From positions 1-64,000 of the forward strand of contig JBFMCS010000036.1 of assembly GCA_040754315.1 (NCBI GenBank): a stretch of DNA of 64,000 nt, read 5' to 3'. How positions within the stretch are numbered: the first letter of the stretch is position 1; every line of letters starts with the position of its first letter. Position numbers and translations under genes: made by a program. Under the pieces are notes generated by a model, which saw only the letters and a list, made by a program, of their open reading frames with translations, ran no database searches and had not been told where the DNA came from. This stretch comes from Bacillota bacterium (GTDB taxonomy: Bacteria; Bacillota; Sulfobacillia; DUSP01; JBFMCS01). Of the stretch, positions 41,557 to 46,471 are shown piece after piece.

Positions 41557-41797
41557 AAAGCAGCCCCCGATGAAGGAGAAGCCCCTCCCTCGGCATCCCC
41601 ACAGAGAACCGGCACAGCTGAGAACCGGCGGGACACCGGATCGTGGCCTCCACTCCAGAGGAGCCAGCGATGAGCTGGCCGCTCGGATCGCGTTAAGATC
41701 TTGTGAGAGAGGACCTGCCTTCTAGGTCAATCGGGGTGGCACCGCGGGCATATGGCCCCGTCCCTGAAGAGCGTTTCGTCGCTTCAGGGGCGGGGCT
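41557..41797 (+). promoter_or_regulatory. T-box riboswitch leader, probably tRNA-Ser responsive
   Basis: The T-box core GGGGTGGCACCGCGGG (41733-41748) is followed by a strong terminator hairpin (41755-41796: CCCCGTCCCTGAAGAGCG paired with CGCTTCAGGGGCGGGG) and CTTTCG. Upstream, the stem I pieces AGAGAACCGGC and GAGAACCGGC are typical. A TCC codon at 41654-41656 in CACTCCAGAGGAG is a candidate serine specifier. Uncharged tRNA would stabilise the antiterminator and switch on the serine genes. Ile, Gly or Cys specificity is possible until the specifier loop is folded. Confidence 0.9.
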
Positions 41798-41826
41798 TTC
41801 GATTATCTAATGAAAGGAGAGAAACC

Positions 41827-42969
41827 ATGTTGGAAACCGTATTCATGTTGCCTGGACCCACTGAGGTCCCCCAGGCGGTGGCACAAGCCATGTCCAGGCC
41901 AATGATAAACCATAGAGGTGAGGGATTTAAACGCCTCTTTTCGGAGGTCCAGGCGGCCCTCGAGCCTCTTTTGAACACCGATGGGGGGATTCTGATCCTG
42001 CCCGGATCCGGCACAGGCGCCATGGAGTGCGCGGCAGTGAACCTCCTTGAACCCGGGGAGAGCGCGCTAGTGGTCGCCATGGGAGCCTTTGGGCATCGCT
42101 TCGCCGATATATGCCGGGGGGCTGGCATCAGCGTCACAAACCTCAATGTGCCCTGGGGAGAGGTCCCAGATCCCCAGGCTATTCGTGCTCACATCGAGAC
42201 CGCGGGGCCCAAGGCGGTCTTCGTGACGCACAACGAGACCTCCACGGGAACCTGCCTAGACCTGGAAGGGGTGGGCCGAGCCCTGGCCAGCACCGGTGTG
42301 TTCCTGGTGGTCGACGCCGTGAGCTCCCTGGGTGGAATACCCGTGAACATGAGGGAATGGGGCATTGATGTCCTGGTAAGTGCCTCTCAGAAGGCCTTGA
42401 TGACCCCGCCCGGGCTGGCTCTGGTGGCCTTCAGCCCCCGGGCCCAGGCGGCTGCTGCCCGTAACCCCCGCCCGAGGTACTACTGGGACTGGAATCTCTA
42501 CCTTAGGGATGCCCTCAAGTCCCAAACCCCCTATACCCCAGCGTTGCCCCAGTGGTTCGGCCTCTTGGAGGCCCTCCGGCTCATAGAGGCAGAGGGGCTC
42601 GAAAGTGTTTTCGCCCGTCACCGCGCCATGTCCAGGATGACCAGGGCAGGACTGGAGATCGTGGGTGCGCCCCCCCTGGGAATGGCGTCTTGTGCCTCAC
42701 CCACGGTGACCGCCTTCAGGATGCCGGGCGGCATCAACGCCGACCAAGTCAGGCAGGCTCTCAATGAACGATACGGCATGGTGGCTGCGGGGGGACAGGG
42801 ACACCTGAAGGGAGAGATCATTCGCTTCGGCCACATGGGAGCAGCCACCACCGGCCATGTGCTGGCCGCCCTGGAGAGGCTGGGGTTAGCGTTAAGAGAC
42901 GTGGGTGCCACTGTGGATGTGCCGGCGGCCCTGGAGGCAGCGCGCCAGGCAGGGGGTGAGGGCACTTGA
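41827..42969 (+). CDS. Class V aminotransferase (serine-pyruvate/alanine-glyoxylate type), likely phosphoserine aminotransferase
   Basis: 380 residues from ATG 41827 with AAAGGAGAG upstream. PLP lysine is K189 in SASQKALMTPPG; the N-terminus LPGPTEVP and the GSGTGAMECA phosphate-binding region fit the SPT/AGXT group. Canonical SerC is another subgroup, but in archaea and some bacteria proteins of this type make phosphoserine or glycine/serine from keto acids. Because it is under the serine T-box and abuts serA (TTGA overlap), transamination of 3-phosphohydroxypyruvate is the most economical role. Confidence 0.9.
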   Translation: MLETVFMLPGPTEVPQAVAQAMSRPMINHRGEGFKRLFSEVQAALEPLLNTDGGILILPGSGTGAMECAAVNLLEPGESALVVAMGAFGHRFADICRGAGISVTNLNVPWGEVPDPQAIRAHIETAGPKAVFVTHNETSTGTCLDLEGVGRALASTGVFLVVDAVSSLGGIPVNMREWGIDVLVSASQKALMTPPGLALVAFSPRAQAAAARNPRPRYYWDWNLYLRDALKSQTPYTPALPQWFGLLEALRLIEAEGLESVFARHRAMSRMTRAGLEIVGAPPLGMASCASPTVTAFRMPGGINADQVRQALNERYGMVAAGGQGHLKGEIIRFGHMGAATTGHVLAALERLGLALRDVGATVDVPAALEAARQAGGEGT

Positions 42970-44579
42970 AGGTGCTGGTGGCCGATGCCATAGCTCAGCC
43001 CGGGGTGGATCTCTTGCTGAGCGAGGCCGAGGTTGACAACTGCCCGGGCCTTCCACGGGATGCACTGCTAGAGCGGGTGGCAACCTGTGACGCCTTGGTG
43101 GTCAGGAGCCAGACGAAGGTATCCAGGGAATTGCTCCAGGCCGGGAACAATCTCAAAGTGGTGGGGCGTGCAGGGGTGGGCGTGGACAACATAGACGTGG
43201 AAGAGGCGACGTCCCGAGGCATAGTGGTAGTGAATGTGCCCGGGGGGAATACGATGGCCGCCTGTGAGCACACCCTTGCGCTATTGTTCGCCATCGCGCG
43301 CAACATACCCCAGGCGGATGCGGCGCTAAGGAAGAGCCAGTGGGAGAGAGAAGCCTTCATGGGCACTGAACTCAATGGCAAGGTGCTGGGGGTTATAGGC
43401 ACAGGCAAGGTCGGACTTGAGGTTGCCAGGCGAGCACGTTCGCTGGGCATGGAAGTCATCGCCTACGACCCTTACATATCACCCGAGCAGATCTCCAAGA
43501 TGGACATCTCCCAGGTGTCGCTGGAGGAGACCCTTTCCAGGGCGGACTTCGTAACCCTGCACTGCCCCCTGACCCGGGAGACCAGGGGCATGATTGGAAG
43601 GGATGAGATCGCCCTCATGAAGCCCTCCGCGCGCCTGATCAACTGCGCCCGTGGCAGCGTTGTTGACGAGAAGGCCCTATGCCAAGCGTTGAAGGAGGGC
43701 AGGATAGCCGGGGCAGCCCTGGACGTCTTCTCCAAGGAGCCCCTGGGCCCGAGCCCCCTGGTGGACCTGCCCAACGTCGTCTTGACCCCTCACCTGGGGG
43801 CGTCTACCGTTGAAGCCCAGGATTACAATGCCATCTACGTGGCAGAGCAGGTCCTGAAGGCGTTGAAGGGCCTCCCGGTGGAGAGCGCAGTGAACCAGCC
43901 CAGGCTCTCTCGGGAAGACTGGAGTGCCCTGCGCCCTCTCATTCCCCTGGCCGAGCTGCTAGGACTCCTGCACGCCCAGGTCTTCCCGTGGGCACTGGAA
44001 CAGGCCCAGGTGTCCTTCGCCAACGTGGAATGTGACAACACCAGCCTGGCCACGAGCTACATTCTCAAGGGGCTCCTCCAGAACACTGTGGCCGCCCCGT
44101 GTAACCACATCAATGCACCCCTGGTGGCGAGGGAACGAGGCACCAAGGTATCGGAGACCCGCCACCTGGACCATGGTCACCCCTGGATGATCCAGTTGCG
44201 GGCGGGAACTGCCCACAGGCTGAGGACTGTCTCCGGCATCTTGACCCCTGCGGGCCAAGCCCGAGTGGTGGAGATGGACGGCTACAGCCTGGAGTTTGTT
44301 CCCTCTCCCCACATGCTGGTGTGCCCGCATGCTGACAGGCCAGGGCTCATTGGCAGGGTAGGAACCCTGCTGGGCGAAAGAAGGGTGAATATAGCCTCCA
44401 TGCAGGTTGGCAGGAAGTCAGTGGGTGGGGATGCCTTGATGATACTCCAGGTGGATGAGCCTGTTCCCGGAGACCTGTCGAACAGCATTGCCGGAGTGCC
44501 GGGGGTTCACGGTGTCCGAGCTGTGGAGCTCCCCGCGCAGCTCCTGAAGGAAGCGGGGGCTGATCCCATTGTTCCTTGA
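42966..44579 (+). CDS. serA: D-3-phosphoglycerate dehydrogenase
   Basis: 537 residues, the long form. Substrate domain, NAD Rossmann motif GTGKVG (145-150) in LGVIGTGKVGLE, catalytic R of CARGSVVDE and H of LTPHLGAST, then an intervening ASB domain and a C-terminal ACT domain (DRPGLIGRVGTLLGERRVN) for serine feedback. First committed step of serine synthesis. The start is a TTG overlapping the aminotransferase stop; its 3' end overlaps the PHP gene by 11 bases. Confidence 0.96.
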   Translation: MKVLVADAIAQPGVDLLLSEAEVDNCPGLPRDALLERVATCDALVVRSQTKVSRELLQAGNNLKVVGRAGVGVDNIDVEEATSRGIVVVNVPGGNTMAACEHTLALLFAIARNIPQADAALRKSQWEREAFMGTELNGKVLGVIGTGKVGLEVARRARSLGMEVIAYDPYISPEQISKMDISQVSLEETLSRADFVTLHCPLTRETRGMIGRDEIALMKPSARLINCARGSVVDEKALCQALKEGRIAGAALDVFSKEPLGPSPLVDLPNVVLTPHLGASTVEAQDYNAIYVAEQVLKALKGLPVESAVNQPRLSREDWSALRPLIPLAELLGLLHAQVFPWALEQAQVSFANVECDNTSLATSYILKGLLQNTVAAPCNHINAPLVARERGTKVSETRHLDHGHPWMIQLRAGTAHRLRTVSGILTPAGQARVVEMDGYSLEFVPSPHMLVCPHADRPGLIGRVGTLLGERRVNIASMQVGRKSVGGDALMILQVDEPVPGDLSNSIAGVPGVHGVRAVELPAQLLKEAGADPIVP

Positions 44580-45396
44580 CTACCACGTCCACCTGGAGAA
44601 CGGTCCCTATGAAAGAGGCTGGGCCCTCCGGTTCCTTGAGGCCGCCGAGAGGGTGGGCATCCAGGAAGTAGGGCTGGTGGAACACGGACACCGGTTCGTA
44701 GAAGCTCGCCACCTTCTGGACATCCCCTGGGCCGCCCAGTATTGCACGGAGAGAACAGACGACTTCGTCAACCTGGTGCTCTCCCTTAAGGCCGGAGGAT
44801 ACCCCGTGAAGCTGGGGATAGAGATGGACTACCTCAGGGGAAAGGAGGAGGCAACCCAGCACTACCTGGAGGGCCACCCGTGGGACTACGTCATTGGCTC
44901 CGTCCACTGGGACCTGGCGGGTGATGGCACGGCCTTCCCCTTTGATCACCTGGATGTGACATGGCCCGAAAATGAGGTGAATTCCATCTACCGCCGCTAC
45001 TTTGGCCTGGTCAAAGAGGCTGTTTCCTCGGGCCTTTTCGACATCCTGGGCCACCTGGATGTGGTGAAGGCCGCCGGGCAAAGGCCTGGTCTCCCATACG
45101 ATGGGTTGCTCAGGGAGACCTTGGCCGAGATCGGGAATGCCGGGATGTGCATGGAGTTCAGTTCGGCAGGGCTGAGAAAACCCGCCAAAGAGACCTACCC
45201 GCCCCGGTGGTACCTGCGCACGGCCAGGGAGCTGGGCATTCCCGTGGTGACGGCCTCGGATGCCCATTACCCCAGGGAGACCGGGTTCAAAGCGGGCGAT
45301 CTGGTCATTGCCCTGTATGAGGCCGGGTACACCACGCTGACCTGCTGGAATGGAAGACAATCGTACCAGGTCCCGCTCCCGGATCCCCCACCCTGA
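44569..45396 (+). CDS. PHP-family phosphatase (histidinol-phosphatase-like), candidate phosphoserine phosphatase
   Basis: 275 residues. PHP metal-site motifs are present in order: DYHVHLE (4-10), VEHGHR (37-42), GIEMDY, GSVHW, GHLDVVK and ASDAHYP. Database relatives are called histidinol phosphatase. It overlaps serA and is under the serine T-box, and no SerB or ThrH gene is in the operon, so dephosphorylation of O-phosphoserine is a reasonable alternative. Histidinol phosphatase for a his pathway elsewhere remains possible. The start is a TTG. Confidence 0.85.
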   Translation: MFLDYHVHLENGPYERGWALRFLEAAERVGIQEVGLVEHGHRFVEARHLLDIPWAAQYCTERTDDFVNLVLSLKAGGYPVKLGIEMDYLRGKEEATQHYLEGHPWDYVIGSVHWDLAGDGTAFPFDHLDVTWPENEVNSIYRRYFGLVKEAVSSGLFDILGHLDVVKAAGQRPGLPYDGLLRETLAEIGNAGMCMEFSSAGLRKPAKETYPPRWYLRTARELGIPVVTASDAHYPRETGFKAGDLVIALYEAGYTTLTCWNGRQSYQVPLPDPPP

Positions 45397-45863: not shown

Positions 45864-46262
45864 TCAGTGCTGTGGTTTCCGTCGCGGGGTGGGTTTTTCC
45901 TTTACCCGGGAGGTCAAGTGATCTTGCCAGTCGTCCCTCCCTGGACGATCAGGCCACGGGTGCCCCTGGGCAATGAGGCAGTCATCCTCCTTGGCAAGGT
46001 CAAACTTCGCGTAGGCGCTGTTCACAATGACAATAATGTCAGGATGGTCCCGCTTGATAGCCTGGATAGCCTCAAGACCGTTCATCACTGGCATCCTGAC
46101 ATCCATGAATGTGACATCCACCGGGTAGCAGCTGGCGAAGTCAACAGCCTCCTGGCCTTTCGATGCTTCAAACACGCACCGGCACAACCGGCTCTTCTCC
46201 AGGATAAACCTGAGATATGTCCTTTCCAGGACCTCGTCGTCGGCCAGCAGCACGTTATACAC
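45864..46262 (-). pseudogene. Truncated response regulator (receiver domain only)
   Basis: From a GTG at 46262 the frame encodes a receiver: VLLADDEVLERTYLRFIL, phospho-acceptor D in VTFMDVRMPVMNG and the switch serine in IVIVNSAYAKFD. After LAKED the sequence should continue GADDYLLKP; instead it runs DDCLIAQGHPWPDR and ends in a basic tail. The receiver resembles YesN/AraC-type regulators, whose helix-turn-helix part is missing. Either a decayed gene or a short single-domain receiver lacking the conserved lysine. No kinase is adjacent. Confidence 0.6.
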
Positions 46263-46471
46263 CTGTAGCCACCCCGCGTAGCACACTGCCGCCGGAACCC
46301 CCACAGGTCTAAACCACGTGGGGATTGCTCCGCGCCAGGCCAGCCTGAGTTCTGCCTCCAGCGCCGTACGCCCCATCGTGATCCCTGGCCTGTTCTAACC
46401 CCTGTTATTGTAGATCCTGCCGCCAGCCGGTTCAACCACAACCCTCTTTTGTATTACCTGACACCAACCTC

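Follow-up and report, generated by a model that had tools for sequence, protein, structure and literature searches.

A serine T-box operon with a PHP-fold protein as candidate phosphoserine phosphatase in a Bacillota bacterium

Which enzyme releases serine from phosphoserine in bacteria where no SerB can be recognized? Paenibacillus is among the many Firmicutes for which no serB has been identified (PMC8002221), and C. perfringens grows without serine, GapMind having given only low-confidence SerB candidates (PMC7311316). The question is raised here by an operon (positions 41557-45396, + strand) of the window, a 64,000-nucleotide stretch of a Bacillota contig. A leader is followed by three genes, for an aminotransferase (AT), SerA and a PHP-family phosphatase. 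An earlier note on this DNA had proposed that the set would make up a complete serine pathway if the PHP enzyme is a replacement for SerB. The UCC specifier of the leader, the failure to find serB in the genome and the linkage of PHP relatives to serA support this proposal, which the serine T-boxes shared with relatives and a clade member in a genome devoid of histidine synthesis strengthen further. Judged from sequence, the window protein is probably a phosphoserine phosphatase of the PHP fold, which stands in for SerB without being its orthologue and has phosphoserine as a physiological substrate.

Leader RNA and operon organization

The T-box leader that the earlier note had placed ahead of the operon corresponds to a match to RF00230 (41561-41768, + strand; model positions 1-219, 66.3 bits, E 2.9e-14). 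It covers all 219 model positions and includes stem I, the AG-rich motif and, in the antiterminator region, the T-box sequence GGGGTGGCACCGCG (41733-41746, + strand), located both by sequence and by the Rfam alignment. The gathering score of RF00230 is 93. The leader was recovered by an E-value search, and the default Rfam scan of the window gave no T-box match because the score lies below that value. The specifier codon had been left to be read, a non-serine codon being the result that would count against the proposal. Aligned to RF00230, the specifier position holds UCC (Ser; 41649-41651, + strand), followed by A41652. Within the T-box sequence, the TGGC at 41737-41740 is complementary to GCCA, the 3' end of a tRNA with discriminator G. 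The discriminator base is G in tRNA-Ser and C in tRNA-His. A serine specifier (UCC then A) together with a matching discriminator pairing (UGGC) assigns the leader to the serine class of T-boxes. A strong hairpin resembling a terminator, but with little of a T tract, follows on the + strand (41754-41797 in the MFE fold; 41773-41796 in a terminator scan). The operon is probably turned on when serine-charged tRNA is scarce: uncharged tRNA-Ser(GGA) would build up and base-pair with the leader at both the UCC specifier and the UGGC bulge, allowing the antiterminator to form and the three coupled genes to be transcribed. Serine T-boxes also govern serine synthesis genes elsewhere, with the specifier AGC on serA of Paenibacillus polymyxa and UCC on serC of C. 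thermocellum and D. hafniense (PMC8002221). Unlike these, the window carries a single leader ahead of aminotransferase, serA and phosphatase genes together.

The first gene (41827-42969, + strand; PF00266) encodes an SPT/AGAT-type class-V aminotransferase, presumed to be the phosphoserine aminotransferase. It fails the SerC cut-offs (28.0 vs 443.6 bits for TIGR01364; 57.7 vs 401.65 bits for TIGR01366). NCBIfam models of the BhcA/PhnW type also stay below their cut-offs, SerC models scoring much lower, and the nearest solved structures in the PDB are serine-pyruvate and serine-glyoxylate aminotransferases. The most likely start is ATG 41827, behind AAAGGAGAG, as indicated by a good ribosome site and by homology. 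A longer frame starting at 41752, at the hairpin foot, was considered and appears less likely on the same grounds. The second gene, serA (TTG 42966 to 44579, + strand), encodes 3-phosphoglycerate dehydrogenase with intervening and ACT domains (PF02826, PF00389, PF19304, PF01842) and scores 617 bits with TIGR01327, well over the cut-off (454). The third, for the PHP-family phosphatase, extends from TTG 44569 to 45396 (+ strand; PF02811). As the earlier note stated, each gene overlaps the next, by 4 nt between aminotransferase and serA and by 11 nt between serA and the PHP gene. In the proposed pathway SerA would oxidize 3-phosphoglycerate, the SPT-type enzyme would make phosphoserine, and the PHP enzyme, with its metal centre, would hydrolyze phosphoserine to serine in place of SerB. 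It may act on histidinol phosphate too. Beyond the operon, a frame on the opposite strand (45864-46376, - strand) resembles the start of a response regulator, ends early and is possibly a gene remnant.

Linkage of PHP relatives to serine genes

PHP relatives were collected by one scan of GTDB contigs and from 398 genomes of the phylum, and flanks were fetched for about 100 loci. The main clade comprises 95 non-redundant loci. In 21 of them, the window included, serA or an aminotransferase lies within about 6 kb of the PHP gene; serA itself is inside the fetched flank in 20/95, the window not counted, mostly together with an aminotransferase. Three of the 95 (L078, L108, L122) are linked to his genes. 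None of the 17 loci of a deeper, HisJ-like group is serine-linked and two are his-linked; serine linkage differs between the two groups with a Fisher p of about 0.03-0.04, kinship ignored. A hand count by family finds the linkage in 11 of about 39, the chance per genome being near 0.5% (rough binomial 1e-16). Serine-linked members are scattered over at least eight places in the tree.

The AT-serA-PHP layout of the window is also found in L023, L024, L076, L090 and L109. Others show PHP-AT-serA (L063, L073, L098, L100) or a convergent layout (L068, L071, L085, L115 and others). At five loci, those of the window, L023, L024, L076 and L090, the PHP gene begins before serA ends. Three diverged relatives, L023, L024 and L076, keep the complete order T-box(UCC)-AT-serA-PHP: a T-box leader was found ahead of each operon (weak in L024, E 0.0014), with TCC in the place corresponding to the window specifier. 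Since the arrangement with its TCC specifier recurs in diverged relatives, it is not due to chance. A motif scan found no T-box upstream of a PHP gene alone.

Further T-box leaders occur near serine operons on the opposite strand (L023:5304-5531 and L090:6769-7056, both - strand). Stops are reported inside the PHP match in G044:C32 and G122:C59; that of G044 is probably the natural gene end, because the tblastn alignment stops about 50 bases short of the end of the profile match.

The PHP protein and its relation to histidinol phosphatases

The window protein has the attributes of a PHP-type phosphatase, namely PF02811, conserved metal-ligand residues and the PHP fold. Its AlphaFold (AF2) model (pLDDT 91.5) best matches, in the PDB, the Thermus histidinol phosphatase 2yxo (TM about 0.8), and a profile built from 13 PHP relatives detects Thermus HisJ (2yxo) with E 9e-63 and L. 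lactis HisK with E 3e-19. The fold is common to the window protein and HisJ/HisK (Thermus 2yxo, L. lactis 4gc3/4gyf, Listeria 3dcp), as are the metal-site residues H6, H8, H39, E85, H113, H162, D231 and H233, which are kept both in the serine-operon clade and in HisJ. R203 of the GLR motif is likewise shared with HisJ. That the closest characterized relatives are histidinol phosphatases, and that three clade members follow hisIE, speaks against the phosphoserine reading.

The window protein nevertheless differs from HisJ/HisK in several respects. It stands in a serine context, they in a histidine one, and it narrowly misses the cut-offs of the HisJ family (TIGR01856, 83.9 vs 90.2; PRK07328, 192.4 vs 202 bits). 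The N-terminus is also different: HisJ, the solved Thermus enzyme included, has C-G-H-A-x-G and D-H-x-P, with N at position 198, whereas the window protein carries HLENGPY and EHGHRF, of the pattern H-x-H-x-E..G plus E-H-x-x-x-F. This pattern characterizes the clade, his-linked members included, and most members have S at position 198. The HisJ-clade N-terminal signature used here was defined in this analysis and is not a published criterion. The signature sets the clade apart from HisJ; alone, it does not give the substrate.

Fixed residues were also tried as a divider between serine- and his-linked members within the clade and failed, the three his-linked members sharing the signature where it is readable. 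In these three (L078, L108, L122), the PHP gene is directly 3' of hisIE, so that one signature is found in another pathway context.

Candidate phosphatases and alternative readings

The earlier note had asked for a search of the genome for serB and for hisK/hisN. No SerB (TIGR00338) over the cut-off occurs in any of 55 genomes, that of the window included, against 7 of 14 control genomes. In the window's own genome, the best TIGR00338 match reaches 28.2 bits vs 144.15, within a 933-aa frame. Neither an IMPase-type protein, such as HisN, nor another HisJ/HisK-type PHP protein was found there. The PHP-domain proteins that a PF02811 search recovered from this genome are DnaE, a DnaE-like protein, PolX and a YciV-like one; it missed the window PHP itself, so the absences given here, that of SerB included, are strong hints rather than airtight proof.

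Classical SerB, a HAD-superfamily enzyme, has the reaction and pathway position proposed for the window protein, but a fold unrelated to PHP. Non-orthologous replacements of SerB, as proposed here, are known in PspA/iPSP, Thermus TT_C1695 and B. subtilis YsaA, which belong to the histidine-phosphatase or HAD superfamilies and not to PHP. TT_C1695 is a replacement phosphoserine phosphatase according to Chiba 2019 (FEBS J), as cited in PMC10665431. Among openly licensed papers, no description of a PHP-type phosphoserine phosphatase was found.

The earlier note did not weigh that the window protein may be the sole histidinol-phosphate phosphatase of its genome. This genome contains a hisZ-G-B-A-IE cluster (L223) and hisD. 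No other histidinol-phosphate phosphatase was recognized, in a search that is not airtight, which weighs against the phosphoserine reading. Since histidine is made there with no other such enzyme recognized, one enzyme may serve both pathways. A single PHP phosphatase acting on phosphoserine and histidinol phosphate, its gene placed by different lineages in serine or histidine operons, is a tentative but serious possibility; being a sub-case compatible with the phosphoserine phosphatase reading, it shares part of the confidence given to the latter. It agrees with the common signature residues of serine- and his-linked members and with the situation in the window's genome and in G350, where no other candidate for either step is recognized. 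There are precedents: B. subtilis YsaA acts on both substrates (PMC8002221), and overexpressed hisB rescued an E. coli serB deletion in the Patrick screen, as cited in PMC3014984. However, genome searches can miss genes, so that the lack of other candidates is not firm. Moreover, G002 has a separate HisK-type PHP protein (L012) and several f19 genomes a separate HisJ-type one, which leaves the serA-linked copy free. G044, rated 100% complete, carries the PHP gene beside AT-serA and has no histidine pathway (neither hisD nor hisB/IGPD found). Clade members also occur in other genomes where no IGPD was found (G037, G239, G379, G100, G062, G019, G295); SerA is below the cut-off in these, and they therefore do not prove a serine role.

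The phosphoserine step could instead be carried out by another phosphatase, PspA-like or PGP-like, with the PHP enzyme acting on a different serine-linked phosphate. The window's genome encodes three proteins of the histidine-phosphatase superfamily (PF00300) and one phosphoglycolate-phosphatase-like HAD, beside one of them, and these could hydrolyze phosphoserine. This explanation is unlikely: the two PF00300 proteins that were scanned score 110 and 98 bits with the PspA model against a cut-off of 350 and are better fitted by CobC and other models, and the position of PHP genes after serA in unrelated lineages is left unexplained. A dedicated histidinol-phosphate phosphatase standing in a serine operon by happenstance, although its genome needs such an enzyme, HisJ/HisK are the best characterized homologues and three clade members are his-linked, is improbable given serine T-box control in four diverged operons, serA linkage in 11 families, the unmatched HisJ signature and the presence of the gene in G044.

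The phosphoserine phosphatase reading may extend beyond the window. A PHP subfamily separate from HisJ could be the phosphoserine phosphatase of many SerB-less Bacillota. It would add another fold to those that catalyze this reaction, and in some lineages one enzyme would act in both serine and histidine synthesis; we regard this generalization as evenly balanced. If true, such an enzyme would partly close a recorded gap, the absence of SerB from many Firmicutes. Many "histidinol-phosphatase" annotations would be corrected, and an enzyme family would be seen moving between two amino-acid pathways.

Two minor features concern gene neighbourhoods. At L005 and L254 (G000:C11:29068-30355), a PGP-like HAD lies near a CobC-like histidine phosphatase, both conceivable phosphoserine phosphatases. 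The only hisD found in the window's genome (L178:8844-10103, G000:C62) is located apart from the hisZ-G-B-A-IE cluster; its neighbours are hutH, hutU and a formiminotransferase gene.
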